From positions 62,001 through 126,000 of the forward strand of contig CAKZXA010000054.1 of NCBI GenBank assembly GCA_937922045.1: a stretch of DNA of 64,000 bases, in the 5' to 3' direction. The DNA is from an uncultured Acidimicrobiales bacterium (GTDB taxonomy: Bacteria; Actinomycetota; Acidimicrobiia; Acidimicrobiales; SZUA-35). Shown here in pieces: positions 35,706-58,023 of this stretch. The notes under the pieces are model-generated. The model was given only the letters and a program-made list of their open reading frames with translations, was not told where the DNA came from and made no database searches. Numbering within the stretch: the stretch's first letter is position 1; every line of letters starts with the position of its first letter. A program made the translations under genes and the position numbers.

Positions 35706-37615
35706 TCGGCTTGCCCCTCAGCGGTGAGCTCATGTAGGAATTGCTGAACCTCGGTGCGGTCCTTGGTTCGCTTCATTGGCGGCAGTGCGTTGATCAAGTC
35801 CCAGCGATAGGCCTTTGACGTGGCCAGGCGTGGGTCGAGCACGGCGACCACGCCACGGTCGGTGGCCCTTCTGATCAACCGCCCAGCCGCTTGGGCCAGC
35901 AAGGTCTGTGCCCGCGGAAGATCGACGTCGCGAAAGGCGGTGGCGCCAGCGCGATCACGCCGAGCCTTCATCACCGGTTCATTCGGTCGGGGGAACGGGA
36001 GCCGATCGATGCTGACGACTACCAGGCTCTCGCCCGGAACGTCGATGCCCTGCCAAAATGACATGGTCGCGGCCAGCACCGAATGTGGGTCTTCCTTGAA
36101 CTGTTCGATCAGCTTGTGTTTGGCTGCATCGCCCTGCATCAGGACGGGCATGTCGAGCTCGTCGCGAAGACGTTCACATGCTTCTTCCATGGCTGAGTAG
36201 CTCGTGAAGAGGCAGAGCATCCGCCCCCCGGCAGAGCGGGCTAATCCGATCATCTCGTCGTGGGTCGCCTTGCGATGCGCGGGATTGTTTGGGTTCGGCA
36301 GGTCGGTGGGGCAGTAGAGGATGCCGAGCTCCTCGTAGGGAAAGGGCGAGCCGACGCGTTCGATCGAACCGGACGGCGCCTTCCCGCTCGTAGCGCCGCT
36401 CCGGCCGAGTCCAAGCTGGACGGCCACGCCGTCGGAAAGGGTGGCGCTGGTGAGGATTACCGCCTTCTCGGGCCAGAGATGCTCGTCGAGAAGCTCGCCG
36501 AGCTCGAGCGGTGTTCGCCGCAAAACGGGGGCTGCGGTGGTGCCGTCAACCCAGACCACGTCGCTCGGTGCTGCGCCGATCAGTTCGTCACAATCATCGA
36601 TCATCCGAGTCGTTATCTTCATCACCCGCTCAACTCTGGCCGCAACCGTCGAGCCGTCGGGAGGATTGACTTTGCGGAGAGCGGCGATGACTTGTTCGGC
36701 CTGTTGACGGGCGTTGAGTAGGACCTCAAGGAGGTCAGTCTTTATGTCTAGCGAATCGCCGACCGAGTTGCGGAGGAGTTCGTCCAAGTCGGCCGCCGAT
36801 CGATCTAGTGCCACCGCCGGCTTGTCGTCGGTGAGAATCGACCGGGCTCGTCTGGCCATCGCTCGGAGGCGGCCGCCGCCCATCTCCGTGCCACACGTTG
36901 CGCCCAGAATCTCTGGAAGCTGGTGGGCCTCATCGAAGACGACCACATCGTGCTCGGGGAGCAGGGCACCTCCGGAGGCGATGTTGAGTCCGTAGTAGTG
37001 ATGGTTCGTCACGATGATGTCGGCCTCGGCCGCCTTGAGCCGGGCATGTTCGGCGAAGCACTCGCCTCCGGAAGGGCAGCGGGCTGCGCCTGGGCATTCG
37101 TCGGCGCCGACGGACACGGCATTCCAGATCTCGAACGAGGGTGCAGGGTCGAGTTCTTCGCGGTCGCCTGTTGTCGTCTGCTCAGACCAGGTCAGCAGGT
37201 CGGCGAAATCATTGTCGGGATTGCGGCCGCCGAGAAGTTCGAGCTGTTCAGAGCGGCTGGCGGCACGGAGTTCGAGTACCTGCTGGCGGCAGAGATAGTT
37301 CCGTCGACCCTTCAGCAGTGCGACCGCAACCTCGCGGCCAGCACTTTCGGCGACGCGAGGAATATCGATGTTTACCAGCTGGCCCTGTAAGGCGATCGTG
37401 GCGGTTGCCACGATACAGACCTTCTCAGCAGCCACGCTCGGGGCCAGATAGGCGAAGGACTTGCCGGTGCCGGTGCCAGCTTCGACCAGCAGGGTCGACT
37501 CTTGCTCGATGGCCTCGGCCACGAGCTCGGCCATGCGGAGCTGACCCGGCCGCAGCTCGCCACCACCGGGCAGCGCCTCGGTGATCCTTGTAATCAATTC
37601 TTGGACGCACGTCAT
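35702..37615 (-). CDS. dinG: DinG-like superfamily 2 DNA helicase
   Basis: A 637-residue XPD/DinG-type helicase. Walker A EAGTGTGKSFAYLAP (about 45-59), DEAH box VVFDEAHQLPE (about 223-233), an iron-sulphur region with Cys residues in DECPGAARCPSGGECFAEH (about 173-191) plus NHHYYGLN, and helicase motif VI in QAAGRLIRR are seen. This predicts a 5-prime to 3-prime helicase with a 4Fe-4S cluster that resolves DNA or R-loop structures. It is monocistronic, convergent with era and divergent from the disordered membrane protein gene. It is E. coli YoaA/DinG-like; the symbol is by family. Confidence 0.9.
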   Translation of the reverse strand: MTCVQELITRITEALPGGGELRPGQLRMAELVAEAIEQESTLLVEAGTGTGKSFAYLAPSVAAEKVCIVATATIALQGQLVNIDIPRVAESAGREVAVALLKGRRNYLCRQQVLELRAASRSEQLELLGGRNPDNDFADLLTWSEQTTTGDREELDPAPSFEIWNAVSVGADECPGAARCPSGGECFAEHARLKAAEADIIVTNHHYYGLNIASGGALLPEHDVVVFDEAHQLPEILGATCGTEMGGGRLRAMARRARSILTDDKPAVALDRSAADLDELLRNSVGDSLDIKTDLLEVLLNARQQAEQVIAALRKVNPPDGSTVAARVERVMKITTRMIDDCDELIGAAPSDVVWVDGTTAAPVLRRTPLELGELLDEHLWPEKAVILTSATLSDGVAVQLGLGRSGATSGKAPSGSIERVGSPFPYEELGILYCPTDLPNPNNPAHRKATHDEMIGLARSAGGRMLCLFTSYSAMEEACERLRDELDMPVLMQGDAAKHKLIEQFKEDPHSVLAATMSFWQGIDVPGESLVVVSIDRLPFPRPNEPVMKARRDRAGATAFRDVDLPRAQTLLAQAAGRLIRRATDRGVVAVLDPRLATSKAYRWDLINALPPMKRTKDRTEVQQFLHELTAEGQAD

Positions 37616-50550: not shown

Positions 50551-50563
50551 CAAGAGAATTGCC

Positions 50564-50594
50564 AAAAACCCGCCTCTAGGGGTGGGTTTTTGCG
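50564..50594 (+). terminator. Intrinsic terminator after tRNA-Asn
   Basis: AAAAACCCGCC (50564-50574) pairs with GGTGGGTTTTT (50581-50591) with one G-T pair and a six-base loop; the T run follows the GC stem, as in a Rho-independent terminator. The A run on the other side makes it look bidirectional. The 170 bases after it, up to amt, hold only a GGACG-GAA-CGTCC palindrome at 50683-50695. Confidence 0.78.
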
Positions 50595-50770: not shown

Positions 50771-52186
50771 ATGTATAAAACTCGACGGAGAGCCTTCTTG
50801 ATAGCGGTCGGCGCTGTGGGAGCGTGCGTGGCTGTAGCGACGCCCGCCTCAGCCCAGGCCGATGTCATCGTTGAGGTGGGTACTAGCGCTGCAGCGGACA
50901 ATGCCTTCATTCTCATCTGCGGGGCTCTGGTCATCTTCATGCAGGCCGGTTTCGCCATGGTTGAAGCAGGGCTTACCCGGGCCAAGAACGCCGCCCACAT
51001 GATGTTGAAGAACCTTCTCGACTTTGTGGTCGGTGCCACTGGCTTTGCGGTTCTCGGCTATCACATTGCCTTCAGCGGCTCCGGTTACCTCGGCTTTGAT
51101 TGGCAGTGGGGTGGCCCGCTCGACCCGGCGAGTGTCGCTCCCAACCTCACGGTTCCCGTCCACTTCTTCTTCAACATGGGTTTTGCCGCCGCCGCGGCCA
51201 CGATCGTGTCGGGCGCTCTGGCCGAGCGAGTCAAGTTCTCGGCCTACTTCATCTACGCCGTCTGCATCTCAACGCTTGTATATCCGGTCGTGGTGAGTTG
51301 GGTGTGGGGCGGCGGCTGGTTGTCGAGCCTCGACACCCCCTTCATCGACCTCGCTGGCGGCTCGGTTGTACACGTCACCGGCGGTATCGCCGCCCTCGTC
51401 GGCGCCGCAATCCTCGGCCCTCGAATCGGACGCTATGACAGTGACGGCACTTCCCTTCCCATTCCGGGCCACAACTTGCCGTTGGCCATACTCGGTATCT
51501 TCATTCTGCTGATCGGCTGGTTTGGGTTCAACGCTGGTTCGCTGCTCGCTGCCGATCTCCGGATTGGTGCGGTCGCCGCAATCACCGCCATCGGTGCCGC
51601 TACTGGCGGCATCGGGGCCACGATTTCATCCTGGCTGACGGTGAAAACACCCGACGTAACGCTTATCGGCAACGGTGTGTTGGGCGGTCTGGTTGGCGTG
51701 ACCGCTGGTGCCGGCAATCTAAGCATCTTTGGAGCGGTCTTTATCGGCCTCGCTGCTGGTGTTATCGCAACCAACGGTGTGCTGCTTCTCGATCGGGTTC
51801 GCATCGACGATCCCGTAGGCGCGGTGCCGGTGCACCTCTTCTGCGGTGTGTGGGGCACCGTGGCCCTTGGCCTGTTCGCTGATCCCGATGCCCTACCGGG
51901 CGGCGACGGCCCCGCTGGCCTGCTCTACGGCGGCTCAGCGGCCCAACTCGGGAGCCAGATCGTCGGCATCACCGCGATCATGGCTTACGTTGGCACGGCC
52001 GTCGGCATCATGTTCATGGTTATGAAGAGTCTTGACATTCTGCGGGTGACCCCAGAGGTTGAAGCCGCTGGTCTCGACCTGGCTGAGCATGCCACGCCTG
52101 CCTACAACGAGGATGTCGTCGACTATCAGTCGGAACAGACCAAGGCCGAACTGGAAGACCTCCTAGCCGACCTGACCTCAACCTGA
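50771..52186 (+). CDS. amt: Ammonium transporter
   Basis: A 471-residue Amt/MEP channel with an N-terminal signal-like segment (AFLIAVGAVGACVAVATPASA, quoted in part as GAVGACVAVATPASA) and eleven membrane helices. The pore His residues appear in SVVHVTGGIAALVGA (about 198) and VPVHLFCGVWGTVALG (about 355), and FNMGFAAAAATIVSGALAER is the family signature. It conducts ammonium or ammonia. No glnK/glnB lies beside it. It precedes the signalling operon in the same direction by 78 bases. Confidence 0.96.
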   Translation: MYKTRRRAFLIAVGAVGACVAVATPASAQADVIVEVGTSAAADNAFILICGALVIFMQAGFAMVEAGLTRAKNAAHMMLKNLLDFVVGATGFAVLGYHIAFSGSGYLGFDWQWGGPLDPASVAPNLTVPVHFFFNMGFAAAAATIVSGALAERVKFSAYFIYAVCISTLVYPVVVSWVWGGGWLSSLDTPFIDLAGGSVVHVTGGIAALVGAAILGPRIGRYDSDGTSLPIPGHNLPLAILGIFILLIGWFGFNAGSLLAADLRIGAVAAITAIGAATGGIGATISSWLTVKTPDVTLIGNGVLGGLVGVTAGAGNLSIFGAVFIGLAAGVIATNGVLLLDRVRIDDPVGAVPVHLFCGVWGTVALGLFADPDALPGGDGPAGLLYGGSAAQLGSQIVGITAIMAYVGTAVGIMFMVMKSLDILRVTPEVEAAGLDLAEHATPAYNEDVVDYQSEQTKAELEDLLADLTST

Positions 52187-52264: not shown

Positions 52265-52672
52265 ATGACCGACGAGGGCACACGAGATCTGAATCTCCTC
52301 AAGAAGTCATTCCGAGCACTGGAAGCCGAGCTGGCTGATGGGATCGAAGAGGGCCCGGCGCCGGCGACGGCAACCACCGATGAACCCGAAGCATCTTCCG
52401 ATGACGAACCGGTGGCAATGTATCGCGGGCGTCCGATCCGGCGGGGCGGCGGCTCAACGCCAGGAGCGGGGTCAACCGGGCAAGGCTCTACCCAGTTCCG
52501 TGGGTCGGGCCGATCGTCGGACCGCGGGCGCAAGACATCGGGAAAGCCGCAGCGAAGTGATGCCGACAAGATCAAGGCCGCTCTCGCTGCTCTCATCGAG
52601 CTGCGCAACGAAGGCTTGATCTCGCCAGCCGAGTTCGATCTCAAGAAGCAACAGCTTCTCGATCGGCTCTGA
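52265..52672 (+). CDS. SHOCT-domain small protein
   Basis: A 135-residue soluble protein. Residues about 4-28 form a helix (DLNLLKKSFRALEAELADG), the middle is Gly/Ser/Arg-rich and disordered, and residues about 100-135 form a SHOCT domain (AALIELRNEGLISPAEFD and KKQQLLDRL), a short module often at the ends of membrane-linked or oligomeric proteins. Ten bases separate its stop from the next start, and GGAGG lies in between. It is the first gene of the operon with the degenerate GGDEF-EAL protein and cvnABCD. Role unknown. Confidence 0.75.
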   Translation: MTDEGTRDLNLLKKSFRALEAELADGIEEGPAPATATTDEPEASSDDEPVAMYRGRPIRRGGGSTPGAGSTGQGSTQFRGSGRSSDRGRKTSGKPQRSDADKIKAALAALIELRNEGLISPAEFDLKKQQLLDRL

Positions 52673-52682
52673 GGAGGTAGTG

Positions 52683-54194
52683 GTGACCGACAACGACGTT
52701 CAGAACGATCAAGACGAAACTGAGAGCCGAGTTTTGTCCGACCGGCGGGCCACGCGCGGTGGTCTACGCCGCCTGAGATCCGGCCAGCTCGATAAGCCGC
52801 AATCAGATGCGAATCAGATCCTTTCGCGGGCGCAGTTCATCGGATTGCTGGCTGACGAAATCAACTCAGCGAAGAGGGAAGACCAATCAGTGTTGGTCGC
52901 AGCGATGCGGATACGACCACTTCCTGAAGGCTACGAAGATCAGGTTGGCCGCCAGCAGGTACCGCTGGAGGTTGTTTCACGGTTTCGATCCGTCAACCCC
53001 AGCATTCGGATTCTGGCGGCGGATCGTCAGAACCTGCTGTTGTTCTTGCCATCGCTTCGCCGTCGTCCCGATGGTGAAGCTGTGGTGAAAGAGCTCGTTC
53101 GCGCCTTCAGCAGTCCGGTAGAGATGGGAAACCTCCAGCATTACTTGGTCCCCACTATCGGCGCAGCGCTCATGGACCACGAAAGCCATTCGGCCGAAGC
53201 CTTGATCGATGGTGCCCGGCTCGCCCTCGGTGAGTGCGATTCCCTCAACCCGTCGACGATGTTCCACCCCTATCAACGGGTACGTAGAAAACGCCAGGGC
53301 GAGATGAAAGACGCCTTGCGTCAGGCGGTGTTGAATCGAGAGATTCAGGTGGCCCTCCAGCCGGCCTTCGATGTTGTAAACGACCGGCTTCAAGCAGTTG
53401 AGGCCCTCGCCCGTTGGAACCGGCCAAACGGAGGCCCGGTTCCGCCTGTCGAGTTCATACCGCTAGCCAAGGACATCGGGGTTTCGCACATGCTGGCGAA
53501 ACAGGTGTTGGATGCGGCGGTGGCCATGATTGTCGAAGCTCGGAGTCACCATCCGGCCATGACCCAACCGGTAACAGTGTGGTTGAACGTGACGCCCGAT
53601 GAGGTTTTGCATCCCGAGTTCGCCGATCTTGTTCTCGGCGCGGCCGCAGGTCGTGAGAGCATGCCGATCGGCATCGAACTTTCGCCGAGCCCCGACGCCG
53701 AGTCTCGCCAGATCCATCAGCTCTTGAAATCGTTGGCCTCACAAAATGTCCGTGTGGCGGTTGGCGACTTCGGGATCGGTCACGCCAACCTGAACATCCT
53801 TCAGCAGTTGCCCTTTGATTCAGTCAAGCTCGATCGAGCTCTCGTCCGACAGATCGCTGGCAATGACGAAGCGGCGACGATGGTCGGTCATCTCGTGAAG
53901 CTGGCGGACGCTCTCGGTCTTGAAACGACGGCGCAGGGGGTGGAGACCGAAGACCAGCTCAAGGTCGTCTCGGACCTCGGCTGCAAGCTCGCCCAGGGCT
54001 ACCACCTCGCATCTCCCACCTCGGACCCCGAAGCGGTGGAGAGGTGGTTTCGTCTCGGGCCCGACGTAACACCGGCAGACCGTGCCTTACCCGATGAGGC
54101 CCAACGACAAGGCAAGGATGCTGCTCTGCGCGCTGTCGTGGCAGATCCGAACGAACCATCGACCATATCCGATGACCGGAAAGTGAAACCGTGA
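52683..54194 (+). CDS. Degenerate GGDEF-EAL domain protein
   Basis: A 503-residue cytosolic protein. Residues about 40-190 look like a GGDEF fold but have AADRQNLLLFLP where the GGDEF loop would be. Residues about 205-455 form an EAL domain: AVEALARWNRP (the EAL), WLNVTPDEV, GIELSPSPD, KLDRALV and AQGYHLAS are seen. However the Asp pair of the DDFG motif is Gly-Asp (AVGDFGIG) and the AEGVET motif is AQGVET, so Mg and water-activating residues are missing. It is therefore likely a cyclic-di-GMP receptor or scaffold rather than a phosphodiesterase. GTG 52683 fits the GGAGG site best. It overlaps cvnA (GTGA). Confidence 0.85.
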   Translation: MTDNDVQNDQDETESRVLSDRRATRGGLRRLRSGQLDKPQSDANQILSRAQFIGLLADEINSAKREDQSVLVAAMRIRPLPEGYEDQVGRQQVPLEVVSRFRSVNPSIRILAADRQNLLLFLPSLRRRPDGEAVVKELVRAFSSPVEMGNLQHYLVPTIGAALMDHESHSAEALIDGARLALGECDSLNPSTMFHPYQRVRRKRQGEMKDALRQAVLNREIQVALQPAFDVVNDRLQAVEALARWNRPNGGPVPPVEFIPLAKDIGVSHMLAKQVLDAAVAMIVEARSHHPAMTQPVTVWLNVTPDEVLHPEFADLVLGAAAGRESMPIGIELSPSPDAESRQIHQLLKSLASQNVRVAVGDFGIGHANLNILQQLPFDSVKLDRALVRQIAGNDEAATMVGHLVKLADALGLETTAQGVETEDQLKVVSDLGCKLAQGYHLASPTSDPEAVERWFRLGPDVTPADRALPDEAQRQGKDAALRAVVADPNEPSTISDDRKVKP

Positions 54195-56647
54195 GAATCA
54201 GATCCAAACTCGTGACACTGATCGCCGTACCGCTTATTGCTCTGATGCTGATAGGTGCCGTAGGCTTCGCCCGGCAAAGCCGAACGATCGAGGTGGCCGA
54301 AGAGTCTTCTGCTGCGGCGAGGGATGCCGGGCTGGTTGAGAAGGCCCGTCTTGCTATCGGCAACGAACGCATTGTTCTAGCATCTGGCGCTGGTGGCGGC
54401 GAGATCAAGGCCGCCCGAGTCGCTACCGACGAGGCGGTCGCCGCACTCCAGGGCCAGGTCGACTCCTTGTCGCCGGAGTCCTCGGCTGAGCTGCTCGAGG
54501 TAGTAGAGCGGTCGCGTCGAGCTCCTGAGGGTGAAGCAATGGGGCTTCTCGCCGACGGTCTAGGCATCCTCCAGCAAGCGTCGACAGAGTCGACCTACGA
54601 CAACCTCGATTCGGTTGAGCGAACGGGGATTCTGATAAACGAACTCGCCGTCGACGCCTTGCATGCGCGGGAAGAAGCGTGGTTCGACTATTTCGCATTG
54701 GGTTCAAGCGCCCGTGTCACTCCTCAGGAGATGGCTGAGATAACAAACGGATTCGCCGAGGCCGCCATCAAGCGGGATCTCACCATTGATCTCGCTGAGT
54801 CGAGCGTCATTGAAGGCTTCTCAGCCGCCCTGCTCGATGCTGACGTTGCCGAGCTGAGTCGGCTAGAAGCGACGGCCACCGATGATCTGGCCGAAGGTCA
54901 GATTTCGGCTGACCGTACTGGCGTCGCTGAGGCTCTGCAGATTCACCGTCAACAGTGGACGGAAAGTGTCTCGGACCAACGACGTCTGAACGAGAGCTCG
55001 ATCGAAGGCCAGTTGTCTGGCGCCAACGACCTCCGGTCGCTGTTCACACTGCTGGCAGTACTGGGACTCGTCGTACTGGCTGGTCTTGTCTTCGTGATGT
55101 ATCGCTCGATCACCCGACCCCTCGACTCGTTGTTGGTACGAGCATCCGCGGTGGCTGATGAGGAGCTGCCGTCACTTATGGAGGCGCTCCGTCACGCCGA
55201 CCGGGCTGAGGATATGCCGACGGCACAGCGGATTCCGGTGGAGACCGACGACGAGATCGGTGAGCTCGTAGCCGCCTTCAACAATGTTCAGACGACGGCC
55301 TATGACCTCGCTACCGAGCAGGCGCTGAGCCGTCGCAACGTGGCCGACATGTTCGTCAACCTGGGCCGTCGCAACCAGCAGCTACTCCAGCGGATCCTCA
55401 AGCTGCTCACACGGCTCGAACGTAACGAGGAAGACCCCGACAAGCTGGCTGAACTCTTTCAGCTAGACAACATCGTGACCCGAATGCGTCGAAACGCTGA
55501 GAGCCTGCTCGCCTTGGCTGGGGCGCAGTCGGCCCGACAATGGTCGAAGCCGATCTCGATGGAGAACACGGTTCGAGCCGCCTTTGGCGAGGTAGACGGC
55601 TATGAACGGATCGAGGTCGTTGAACTGGTCGATGCGTCGGTGTCGGGTAGCGCGGTGGCTGATGCGACCCACCTTCTCGCCGAGCTTCTCGAGAACGCAC
55701 TCAATTTCTCTCAGCCCGAAACCCGAGTGGTGGTTAGCGGTCGGCCCACTGCGGACAACGACTATCTCATTACCGTGAGCGACCGCGGTATCGGTATGAC
55801 CTCGACCGATCTGGCCGAGAACAATGCCCGCATCACCGATCCACCTCCGCTGGATCAGGTGCCGACACGATTCTTGGGCCTGTACGTGGTCGGTCGGTTG
55901 GCTGATCGGCACGGTATTTCGGTGCGGCTGACCGAAGGCGAACACATTGGTACTGTGGCCAAAGTTCTGCTGCCCGCGGCAATCCTTGCCGGTGAATCCA
56001 ATGACCAACCGACGCTGGTCGATACGGCCCAGGGGTCGGATCTGATCATCGAAGACGGCGATCTGTCGGTGACTGATCTTGACGCTCCGGTCATCGACGA
56101 AGCTGCCGGCCTGGTCGACGAGGATCCAAAGGAATTCATCGTCGAGCCGGTCAGCAATGACCACAGCCCTCTCGACGAAGTCCACGACTATGACGCTGAG
56201 CTTGCGGCGTTGACCGGCGAAGAACCGGACGACGCAGTCGGCGAAGAAACACCCGACGCCTCGACAGAGAACGAACCGACTCCTGTCGGTGCCCTAGCGG
56301 CTGAGGCTACGACGGCTGTTGCCTCAGTTGAGGCGGTCGAAGCAGCGGTGGTGCCTGAACCTGGCATCGTCGACACTGCGCCGGCGAGCCCGGCCGCCGA
56401 GGCGCCAGCAACCCCGACCGCGGCCGATGTGGCCGAACCTGCCGTCAGCGATCTTGGCTTGCCCGTTCGCCGCCGCGGCCAGACGCTGAGCGAAGCTCAA
56501 AAAGTGACGCCTACCAGGGAGCGCGAGAAGACAGAAGAGGCCGATCCAGACTCGGCTCAAGGGTTCTCATCCATGCTCTCAGCATTCAGCGCCGGTGTAA
56601 ATCAGGCAGCTGAAAGCCGAGATTCTGAGAAAGGCAACAACGAATGA
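54191..56647 (+). CDS. cvnA: CvnA-like NIT-HAMP-ATPase membrane protein
   Basis: An 818-residue protein with the conservon CvnA layout: membrane helix 1 at about 8-22, an extracellular all-helical NIT-like sensor (about 30-275), helix 2 at about 282-302, HAMP (about 303-375), a helical part (about 380-450) and an ATPase domain with LLENALNFS, DRGIGMTS and FLGLYVVGRLADRHG. The long acidic tail (620-818) is disordered. In the helical core, the LDHLATRMRR-type segment reads LDNIVTRMRRNAE, so the expected His is Asn. GTG start overlaps the EAL gene; its end overlaps cvnB by four bases. Confidence 0.88.
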   Translation: MRIRSKLVTLIAVPLIALMLIGAVGFARQSRTIEVAEESSAAARDAGLVEKARLAIGNERIVLASGAGGGEIKAARVATDEAVAALQGQVDSLSPESSAELLEVVERSRRAPEGEAMGLLADGLGILQQASTESTYDNLDSVERTGILINELAVDALHAREEAWFDYFALGSSARVTPQEMAEITNGFAEAAIKRDLTIDLAESSVIEGFSAALLDADVAELSRLEATATDDLAEGQISADRTGVAEALQIHRQQWTESVSDQRRLNESSIEGQLSGANDLRSLFTLLAVLGLVVLAGLVFVMYRSITRPLDSLLVRASAVADEELPSLMEALRHADRAEDMPTAQRIPVETDDEIGELVAAFNNVQTTAYDLATEQALSRRNVADMFVNLGRRNQQLLQRILKLLTRLERNEEDPDKLAELFQLDNIVTRMRRNAESLLALAGAQSARQWSKPISMENTVRAAFGEVDGYERIEVVELVDASVSGSAVADATHLLAELLENALNFSQPETRVVVSGRPTADNDYLITVSDRGIGMTSTDLAENNARITDPPPLDQVPTRFLGLYVVGRLADRHGISVRLTEGEHIGTVAKVLLPAAILAGESNDQPTLVDTAQGSDLIIEDGDLSVTDLDAPVIDEAAGLVDEDPKEFIVEPVSNDHSPLDEVHDYDAELAALTGEEPDDAVGEETPDASTENEPTPVGALAAEATTAVASVEAVEAAVVPEPGIVDTAPASPAAEAPATPTAADVAEPAVSDLGLPVRRRGQTLSEAQKVTPTREREKTEEADPDSAQGFSSMLSAFSAGVNQAAESRDSEKGNNE

Positions 56648-57060
56648 CAACGACAACTAGTCAGGAGTTTTCATTCCTGCTCGACAACTTTGTGGCAAGC
56701 AACTCGGGTGTCGACGACGCCTTGGCGGTTTCCGCCGACGGTATTCGGTTGGCAACCTCCGAGGGACTCCCGGAGGCGGTCGCCGACCAGTTCGGCGCCA
56801 TCACCTCTGGATTGGCGAGCCTCACCCTGGGAGCAGCTCGATGTTTCGCTGAAGACAATGTCCACCGAGTCGTGATCGAGATGGACAGGAGCTACTTGCT
56901 CATTGTCAACATCACGCATGGTGCGGTACTCGGTGTCGTTGCTCGCAAGGATGCCGACATCGGCCAGATCGCGTACGAGATGACCCTCCTCGCTGAACGG
57001 GTAGGTCAAACGTTGACGCCGGCGATCATCGCCGAGATGAAGAACACCCTTTCGGTCTGA
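56644..57060 (+). CDS. cvnB: Roadblock/LC7 protein (CvnB)
   Basis: A 138-residue roadblock/LC7-fold protein. EFSFLLDNFVASNSGVDDAL begins the domain and TLGAARCFAEDNVHRVVIEM plus LIVNITHGAVLGVVARKDAD match MglB/CvnB relatives, which act as GTPase-activating or regulatory partners of Ras-like GTPases. It overlaps the upstream cvnA stop (ATGA) and is followed 13 bases later by the DUF742 gene. The predicted partner is the GTPase CvnD at the end of the operon. Confidence 0.92.
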   Translation: MTTTTSQEFSFLLDNFVASNSGVDDALAVSADGIRLATSEGLPEAVADQFGAITSGLASLTLGAARCFAEDNVHRVVIEMDRSYLLIVNITHGAVLGVVARKDADIGQIAYEMTLLAERVGQTLTPAIIAEMKNTLSV

Positions 57061-57073
57061 CGATGGAGCGGCT

Positions 57074-57430
57074 ATGACTGATTTCGATTTCCCAGATGAT
57101 GAAGATGAGGCTGACTTCGTCCGTCCGTTCCTCGTCACGCCAGGGCGTACCCACGCCTCAGTCGAAGGACTTCGGTTTGAGACACTGGTGCAGGCGACCA
57201 GCCTGTCGGGGGCCGAGCTTCGGTTCGAACCGGCACGGGTCTGGGAGCTTTGTCACGATGCGCTTGCATTGGCAGAGATCTCGGCCCAGCTTGGTATGCC
57301 CATCGGCACGGTCAAGGTGGTCGCTAGCGACCTGATCGAGAGCGGACACTTAGCCGTCCACGACACGGTAGACGCCCAGCACGACGTTGCATTGATATCT
57401 CGCCTGATAGAAGGCGTGAGGAGGCTTTAG
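57074..57430 (+). CDS. cvnC: DUF742 protein (CvnC)
   Basis: A 118-residue DUF742 protein. VRPFLVTPGRTHA (about 16-28) is the family signature, and the C-terminal part (LCHDALALAEISAQLGMPI, then VKVVASDLIESGHL) is a winged-helix-like fold. DUF742 proteins are found between cvnB and cvnD in conservons and their exact role is unknown. The gap to cvnD is two bases. Confidence 0.9.
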   Translation: MTDFDFPDDEDEADFVRPFLVTPGRTHASVEGLRFETLVQATSLSGAELRFEPARVWELCHDALALAEISAQLGMPIGTVKVVASDLIESGHLAVHDTVDAQHDVALISRLIEGVRRL

Positions 57431-57432
57431 AT

Positions 57433-58023
57433 ATGAGCAGGGAACGGAAAGTCTCCGCCAAGTTCGTTGTAGCTGGTGGCTTTGGGGTAGGGAAGACTAC
57501 CTTCGTCGGGTCGGTGTCTGAGATAGACCCGCTCCGAACCGAGGCAGCCATGACATCGGCAAGTACGGGGATCGACGACACGACACATGTGGGTCAGAAG
57601 ACCACGACCACGGTGGCGATGGATTTCGGGCGCATCACGATCGACAATGATCTGGTTCTCTACATCTTCGGAACGCCCGGTCAGGAGCGGTTCGGCTTCA
57701 TGTGGGATGACCTCGTGGCTGGAGCGCTTGGCGCCATTGTGATGGTTGACTCTCGCCGTCTCGGTGATTGCTTCTTCGCTGTCGACTACTTCGAGCAGCG
57801 CGGCATCCCCTTCGTCGTGGCTGTTAACACGTTCGATGGCCAGGAATCGCACGATCTGACCGCAATTGCAGAAGCGCTTCAGCTCAGCGACAACGTCAAG
57901 ATCGGCTATTGCGATGCCCGTGATCGCACCTCGGTGAAGGACGTGCTGCTCTTGCTGTTCGAGGTCATTCTGCAGGGAATTCCGAACCAGGCCATTAGCG
58001 GGTCGGCGGCCCCGGCGACCTAG
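57433..58023 (+). CDS. cvnD: Conservon GTPase (CvnD)
   Basis: A 196-residue Ras-like GTPase. The P-loop VAGGFGVGKTTFVGS (about 10-24), switch II region FGTPGQERFGFMW (about 74-86) with Pro and Gln, and the Asn-Thr-Phe-Asp in VAVNTFDGQ in place of NKxD are as in actinobacterial CvnD. It is the signalling output of the operon. It follows cvnC by two bases and ends before a hairpin at 58033-58050. Confidence 0.93.
   Translation: MSRERKVSAKFVVAGGFGVGKTTFVGSVSEIDPLRTEAAMTSASTGIDDTTHVGQKTTTTVAMDFGRITIDNDLVLYIFGTPGQERFGFMWDDLVAGALGAIVMVDSRRLGDCFFAVDYFEQRGIPFVVAVNTFDGQESHDLTAIAEALQLSDNVKIGYCDARDRTSVKDVLLLLFEVILQGIPNQAISGSAAPAT

Follow-up and report, generated by a model that had tools for sequence, protein, structure and literature searches.

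We analysed a cluster of seven genes on the forward strand of a 64,000-nucleotide stretch of DNA (the window) from an uncultured Acidimicrobiales bacterium. In gene order, these encode an ammonium channel of the Amt family, a protein with a SHOCT domain, a degenerate GGDEF-EAL protein (the EAL protein), and CvnA, CvnB, CvnC and CvnD, whose four adjacent genes constitute a conservon, that is, an actinobacterial G-protein system (AGPS). The features are compiled in Table 1. The last six genes had been noticed in a preliminary description of the window, which placed them at 52265-58023; the genes, their coordinates and the order of the four cvn genes turned out to be exact, and so did the overlap of the EAL gene and cvnA in the four bases GTGA (54191-54194). 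cvnA and cvnB overlap by ATGA (56644-56647), and Amt precedes the SHOCT gene on the same strand at a distance of 78 base pairs (bp). A tRNA-Asn gene and a terminator-like stem lie in front of Amt, a convergent gene of the CoA-transferase family follows cvnD, and a terminator scan called no terminator-like site in any of the intergenic spaces within this seven-gene cluster.

Table 1. Genes, residues and border of the conservon locus (window positions).
Feature	Position	Strand	Basis
Amt, ammonium channel of the conservon-linked subfamily	50771..52186	+	PF00909, 5e-110
Amt tail motif PAYNED, residues 443-448, possible docking site	52097..52114	+	motif alignment
MYRG-SHOCT protein, adaptor candidate	52265..52672	+	SHOCT, PF09851, 2.3e-6
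Degenerate GGDEF-EAL protein, probable non-catalytic accessory	52680..54194	+	GTG start; PF00563, 8.9e-53
EAL Pro336, replacing the second Glu of ElTE	53685..53687	+	alignment to solved EAL enzymes and orthologues
EAL Gly362, replacing the first Asp of DDFG	53763..53765	+	alignment to solved EAL enzymes and orthologues
EAL Gln419, replacing the Glu of AEGVE	53934..53936	+	alignment to solved EAL enzymes and orthologues
CvnA	54191..56647	+	NIT-like outer fold, HAMP, DHp, HATPase_c; long LPxR-bearing tail of low confidence
NIT-like extracytoplasmic domain of CvnA, model residues 19-277	54245..55021	+	VIA-align to NasR
CvnA Asn427, DHp position	55469..55471	+	alignment of CvnA proteins
CvnB, roadblock/MglB type	56644..57060	+	Robl_LC7, PF03259, 1e-16
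CvnC, DUF742	57074..57430	+	PF05331, 2e-23
CvnD, Ras-like GTPase	57433..58023	+	Pfam; NxFD and DAR motifs in the translation
Intrinsic-terminator-like stem-loop after tRNA-Asn, upstream cluster border	50563..50592	+	13-pair stem, T-rich tail

The preliminary description had mentioned the channel gene as lying just upstream, which is correct, and had seen no operon link; the comparison of related genomes suggests instead that Amt and the SHOCT protein are wider and probably older partners of the conservon than the EAL protein. A SHOCT profile was run against the family of the source organism (f1, 39 genomes) and against 397 sampled genomes of the order (E-value up to 1e-15). Eleven of the 39 f1 genomes encode a full-length SHOCT protein, and matches occurred in 13 of the 397 genomes, six of which belong to the family f27. 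At all six of these f27 loci, Amt, SHOCT and cvnA are co-directional with no EAL gene between them; the gaps amount to 20-58 bp between Amt and SHOCT (6 loci) and to 21-43 bp between SHOCT and cvnA (5 loci measured). cvnBCD was seen at L210, L211, L213 and L214, and the remaining two loci (L212, L215) are cut by contig ends. When all 19 f27 genomes were searched, SHOCT was found in eight, all of one genus, and the two further loci again adjoin Amt and cvnA. In a third family, f17, both loci (genomes G142 and G173) have the order Amt-SHOCT-cvnA, followed by cvnBCD in G173; the contig of G142 ends after cvnA.

A profile built from 17 linked Amts gave at least 680 bits at 16 loci in 15 of the 397 genomes, the next scores being 562 and 550; a frame beside the 562-bit Amt looks like PII, judged by eye. 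SHOCT adjoins all 16 of these Amts and cvn adjoins 13; two loci are cut by a contig edge (G012, G029) and one has no cvn gene (L218). In a sample of 396 genomes of the phylum, the Amt model scored above 510 bits in our own genome only. Among 78 conservons placed in a tree, the Amt-linked lineage forms one clade with a support of 0.975 and with no other conservon inside; it splits into an f1 group (0.968) and an f27/f17 group (0.849). This tree, the second one computed, was built without L069 on account of its strongly diverged genes. It also does without L212, L215, L216 and L221, whose contigs lack CvnB or CvnD, and neither tree includes L064 or L073, where the contig breaks off within cvnA. 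For the 57 conservons that the first tree placed outside the clade, a tblastn search of the surrounding stretches gave no match to Amt or SHOCT, some of these stretches being cut by contig ends. Since the arrangement Amt-SHOCT-cvn occurs without EAL in two other families, with conservons of the same clade, we regard Amt as the deeper partner.

The linked Amts are also set apart by their residues. The channel has the PF00909 domain, and all 17 aligned Amts contain the VH and PVH histidines, which we take to be the twin pore histidines of AmtB. The same 17 proteins share an extra histidine (His131 here, within a VPVH-like sequence that precedes the pore Phe stretch), the sequence PVH[LF] at the second pore histidine, and an acidic tail, PAYN[DE]D, which is likewise present at L216 and L217 and is, as a sequence motif, a candidate docking site. 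None of these three features was found in the three other Amts of our genome. Another Amt of this genome adjoins glnK, whereas the conservon-linked one does not, and the two PII genes are on contigs other than that of the window. The SHOCT protein consists of a conserved N-terminal stretch, an MYRGxxxR-like centre and the C-terminal SHOCT domain; among ten aligned orthologues, M52-Y53-R54-G55 is invariant. At L218 (6621-8316, in G305:C97), a second Amt-SHOCT pair occurs with no conservon, and its Amt lacks the PAYN tail motif. At L217 (12141-13998), the Amt-linked conservon is followed on its own strand by a second one, recognised by matches to cvnA and cvnC.

The conservon itself has the typical constituents. 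CvnD carries the motifs NTFD (NxFD) and DAR of group-2 MglA-type GTPases, and in the C-terminal extension of CvnA the residues L757, P758 and R760 of the LPxR motif are invariant in 15 CvnA proteins; the definitions of these motifs are those given in the excerpted text of PMC4316618. The preliminary description had assigned a NIT domain to CvnA. Pfam gave no NIT match, even at an E-value of 1; the fold bears the assignment out, as VIA-align superimposed the predicted model (residues 19-277) on NasR (4akk) with a Z-score of 22.9 over 250 residues at 3.8 Å. The hydrophobic segments 7-25 and 284-302 enclose about 258 residues, and the model thus points to a NIT-like outer domain, as many, but not all, CvnA proteins possess.

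At the DHp position, where an active CvnA-type histidine kinase has a histidine, CvnA of the window has Asn427. The 13 CvnA proteins counted in the f1 clade have Asn (9), Gln (1), Ser (1) or His (2), and that of L151, read by hand and outside this count, has Asn. The eight f27/f17 proteins have His (7) or Ala (1), and 55 conservons outside the lineage have His (50) or Gln (5); because of the latter five, this histidine was not taken as defining a conservon. CvnA of the window and most of the clade retain the N-box of the ATPase domain. Among the structures matched by the kinase core, DivL, a kinase without the histidine, ranked first, tied within 1 Z with others. In CvnA8 of Streptomyces coelicolor, the exchange H183A drastically lowers ATPase activity and abolishes detectable autophosphorylation, and CvnF8 stimulates CvnA8, according to the excerpts of PMC13343842. 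Position 427 presumably corresponds to H183. As CvnA here has asparagine where most of the compared proteins have histidine, a signal would probably pass through it by conformation and not by phosphate.

Within the family f1, a further gene has probably joined the unit. An EAL profile was searched against all 39 genomes and found a close orthologue in 14 (E-value 5.5e-135 or better), to which a contig-end fragment in G061 is added. In 12 of these 15 genomes the EAL gene adjoins cvnA; in the other three it lies beside cvnB-cvnD (G011), is cut by a contig edge (G012) or lies elsewhere (G062). The pairing noticed in the preliminary description is therefore no peculiarity of one strain. Its orientation varies: EAL and cvnA are co-directional at four of the 12 loci (the window, L064, L065, L067) and divergent at eight (L066, L068, L070, L071, L072, L073, L074, L151). 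The co-directional loci fall on two branches of the CvnB+CvnD tree, so orientation must have changed while adjacency stayed. The GTGA overlap was seen in the window genome only, the gaps at the other three co-directional loci being 146, 123 and 194 bp; consequently, translational coupling of EAL and cvnA was rejected as a conserved trait, and the tight coupling claimed earlier was not seen beyond this genome. In the sample of the order, EAL matches at an E-value up to 1e-70 were confined to 10 genomes, all f1. SHOCT and EAL co-occur among the 39 f1 genomes (counts 10, 1, 5, 23; Fisher test, p = 4e-5, uncorrected for relatedness). A stripped three-gene form was observed in G011 (L069, 8193-10715), where the genes directly behind EAL encode a roadblock protein and a strongly diverged Ras-like GTPase, with no cvnA or cvnC; this GTPase has APPQ in place of TPGQ and scores weakly.

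The EAL protein is well modelled by AlphaFold (mean pLDDT 82.6, mostly confident), and Foldseek retrieved the GGDEF-EAL structure 5m3c as the best match of the model; FimX and LapD were both among its PDB matches. Both catalytic halves are altered, which substantiates the term degenerate used in the preliminary description. The GGDEF_2 match in Pfam (0.004) is under the family cut-off and no GGDEF-like motif occurs in the aligned stretch, so the signature of an active diguanylate cyclase is missing. In the EAL domain, the three residues expected of an active phosphodiesterase are all replaced (Table 1). Position 362 is Gly in 13 of 13 close orthologues, the Glu at position 419 is lost in 12 and kept in L074, and position 336 is Pro in ten and Glu in three (L072, L073, L074). 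For comparison, 18 EAL proteins (L016-L033) were examined: 13 have the full canonical set and L032 has all but one residue of it; the other four (L016, L017, L018, L021) belong to the degenerate family or are distantly related to it. The first Asp of DDFG is kept in 17 of the 18, and the exception, L016, is itself an orthologue. The protein keeps the binding residues E241, N303, D363, K383 and Q439 and the letters of the EAL motif; Lys383 is changed in six and Glu241 in four of the 13 close orthologues, and both would contact ligand or metal, so that binding of cyclic di-GMP (c-di-GMP) is not clearly under selection. Two further features are conserved in the closer orthologues: a stretch close to the N-terminus that resembles GGLRRLRxG, and a linker resembling HPYQR. 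This pattern suggests a protein that is catalytically dead, yet conserved, and probably acts as a non-catalytic partner. No relative of it was found in the viral contigs searched.

Other EAL genes occur near conservons as well. Intact GGDEF-EAL genes of about 650 residues directly follow cvnD at six of 15 f1-clade loci, tail to tail at L065 (13276-15255), L067 (12845-14830), L070 (12702-14690), L151 (5195-6469) and L068 (3780-5711), and on the strand of cvnD, abutting it, at L079 (5686-7668); an input of c-di-GMP would thus still be conceivable. Outside the lineage, distant degenerate EAL genes are divergent from cvnA at three of 57 conservons (L075, L076, L140), and canonical EAL genes lie within about 6 kb at L130, L131 and L160. 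L140 (232-2808), from a genome of another family, encodes a membrane-bound degenerate GGDEF-EAL protein; L075 and L076 show a similar degenerate EAL pairing with another conservon clade. These three are either older relatives or parallel cases.

On balance, the locus looks to us like an AGPS dedicated to nitrogen sensing with the ammonium channel as its input, a reading to which we give little more than an even chance. Ammonium at Amt would change the state of the cytoplasmic tail PAYN[DE]D, and the SHOCT protein would serve as an adaptor relaying this state to CvnA, for which the NIT-like outer domain may provide a second input. CvnA would then shift CvnC and the roadblock protein CvnB, the presumed GTPase-activating protein, changing the GTP state of CvnD. 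In one family, the dead GGDEF-EAL protein would have been added beside cvnA and serve CvnA, CvnB or CvnD as a receptor or scaffold without enzymatic function. What the comparison shows directly is gene order, linkage, the clade, the lost residues and the fold matches of the models; each step of signal flow is our inference.

Several observations weigh against this reading or parts of it. With respect to the channel, the linked Amts score high by construction, only G142, G173 and G305:C97 being independent of the model, and L164, inside the f1 group of the clade, has neither Amt nor SHOCT nor EAL. The glnK-linked paralogue also matches 6eu6 and 8qj3 first; similarity to these structures, presumably sensor-type Amts, therefore does not discriminate and was not used as evidence. 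With respect to CvnA, NasR was first by VIA-align and yet not among the best 50 Foldseek matches, the equivalence of position 427 with H183 is presumptive, and L072 and L081 keep the histidine; moreover, loss of the histidine does not track EAL exactly, as CvnA of L161 has Asn without EAL and that of L072 has His with it. With respect to the EAL protein, L161 (Amt-SHOCT-cvnABCD in the f1 group) shows that it is dispensable, though a different conservon of its genome (L075) has a distant relative of EAL next to it; the EAL gene of G062 lies away from cvn, and G028, G011, G030, G061 and G062 have EAL with no full SHOCT match, in some cases owing to contig cuts or incompleteness. Finally, the comparison genomes that carry names are metagenome-assembled ones labelled Acidimicrobiales, Acidimicrobiia or Actinomycetes (one weak match is labelled Sphingomonadales), and genomes below full completeness can hide genes.

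The linkage could also mean that control runs from the conservon to the channel. Either CvnD-GTP or the SHOCT protein would then gate or localise Amt, as GlnK does with AmtB, which would make Amt the effector and place the sensor in the outer domain of CvnA. The linked Amt has no glnK beside it, while another Amt of the genome does, its acidic tail is conserved, and CvnA appears from the model to keep its own outer sensor-like fold; in addition, the fifth gene product of the Mfp system, MfpA, is called a GTPase effector in the excerpt of PMC9769811. However, that known effector gene is downstream, whereas Amt is upstream of cvnA at most loci; at L074, Amt-SHOCT lies after cvnD. We consider control of the channel possible, but clearly the less probable direction. 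Compatible with the channel as input is the proposal of the preliminary description, a six-gene module SHOCT-EAL-cvnABCD whose EAL protein would act as a receptor for c-di-GMP and feed the GTPase. What stands of it is that EAL and SHOCT are conserved companions and that EAL is a probable non-catalytic partner; the linkage in most genomes with an orthologue, the binding residues kept here, the intact GGDEF-EAL genes after cvnD and the existence of degenerate receptors of the FimX and LapD type agree with it. The module is not fixed, though: the same conservon lineage does without EAL in two families and at L161, two thirds of the linked EAL genes are divergent, Lys383 and Glu241 vary, and EAL genes are common, with 16 matches in our own genome. 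As a defined module it is thus unlikely.

Least credible of all is a working phosphodiesterase: the EAL motif letters are kept in this genome, but the losses at positions 336, 362 and 419, shared by ten, 13 and 12 of the 13 orthologues, led us to reject it. That the EAL gene is a passenger, which landed beside cvnA and stays by inertia, would fit its restriction to a single family, its absence from L161 and its other place in G062; its open frame and its place were, however, maintained although orientation differs on at least two tree branches, and in G011 a roadblock and a GTPase gene follow it, which makes the passenger improbable. The readings of Amt as input, of Amt as target and of EAL as receptor are not mutually exclusive. 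One might even combine three inputs, Amt and SHOCT reporting ammonium, the NIT-like domain of the histidine-less CvnA an oxidised nitrogen ion and the dead EAL protein c-di-GMP, which would converge by conformation on the CvnB-CvnD switch with no transfer of phosphate; in this complete form the proposal is speculative and rather doubtful.

The preferred reading, with the channel as input, can be compared with several known systems. The locus resembles the conservons Cvn8 and Cvn9 of S. coelicolor in the order cvnABCD, in a CvnA with HATPase, NIT-like fold and LPxR tail, in the roadblock protein CvnB and the DUF742 protein CvnC, and in a group-2 GTPase with NxFD and DAR; it differs in the dedicated Amt and SHOCT genes upstream, the dead EAL protein of one family and the absence of the DHp histidine. 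Like CvnF (GAF) and CvnE (P450), which are proposed to act on CvnA in the excerpts of PMC13343842, the additional genes here are lineage-specific neighbours of a conservon. In contrast, EAL, SHOCT and Amt belong to other families, with no Pfam match to GAF or P450 in any of the three, and are upstream at most loci. According to the same excerpts, published accessories overwhelmingly accompany CvnA proteins that have no sensory domain; CvnA of the window, with its predicted outer fold and its accessory genes, therefore departs from this pattern. In Ks-Amt5, an Amt is tied to a histidine-kinase-like output in one fused chain, whereas here the genes are separate and the small GTPase is the likely output (compare the excerpt of PMC5764959). 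As in AmtB-GlnK, the gene next to Amt encodes a small cytoplasmic partner; here it is a SHOCT protein and not PII, which sits with another Amt of the genome. FimX- and LapD-type c-di-GMP receptors are degenerate, too: the GGDEF-EAL fold with lost catalytic residues is common to them and to the EAL protein, which is linked to a small-GTPase operon and whose binding of c-di-GMP is putative. Group 1 Rup GTPases are also bacterial small GTPases beside c-di-GMP-type genes; they are of another GTPase family, and the excerpted text of PMC4316618 does not describe their diguanylate cyclase or phosphodiesterase neighbours as degenerate.

Among the open-access papers searched, judged by listings and excerpts, none linked a conservon with an ammonium transporter or with an EAL protein. 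The signal path of conservon systems is described as poorly understood in the excerpts of PMC13343842, and a conservon lineage accompanied by a dedicated subfamily of ammonium channels provides a definite candidate for the signal and a small set of proteins to consider. If the reading is right, an Amt would be paired with a small GTPase, and accessory genes would stand beside a CvnA that has an outer sensor fold and is without the histidine that CvnA8 needs.

The scans for signals in the DNA contributed little. Seven terminator-like sites were found where 5.8 were expected, so that the stem listed in Table 1 is of interest by position alone, and the promoter scan was uninformative (1 found, 1.1 expected). 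At gathering thresholds, Rfam matched tRNA only. ARAGORN called a tRNA-Asp at window positions 37172-37266; with 95 bases and the anticodon atc, both unusual, it is possibly a false call.

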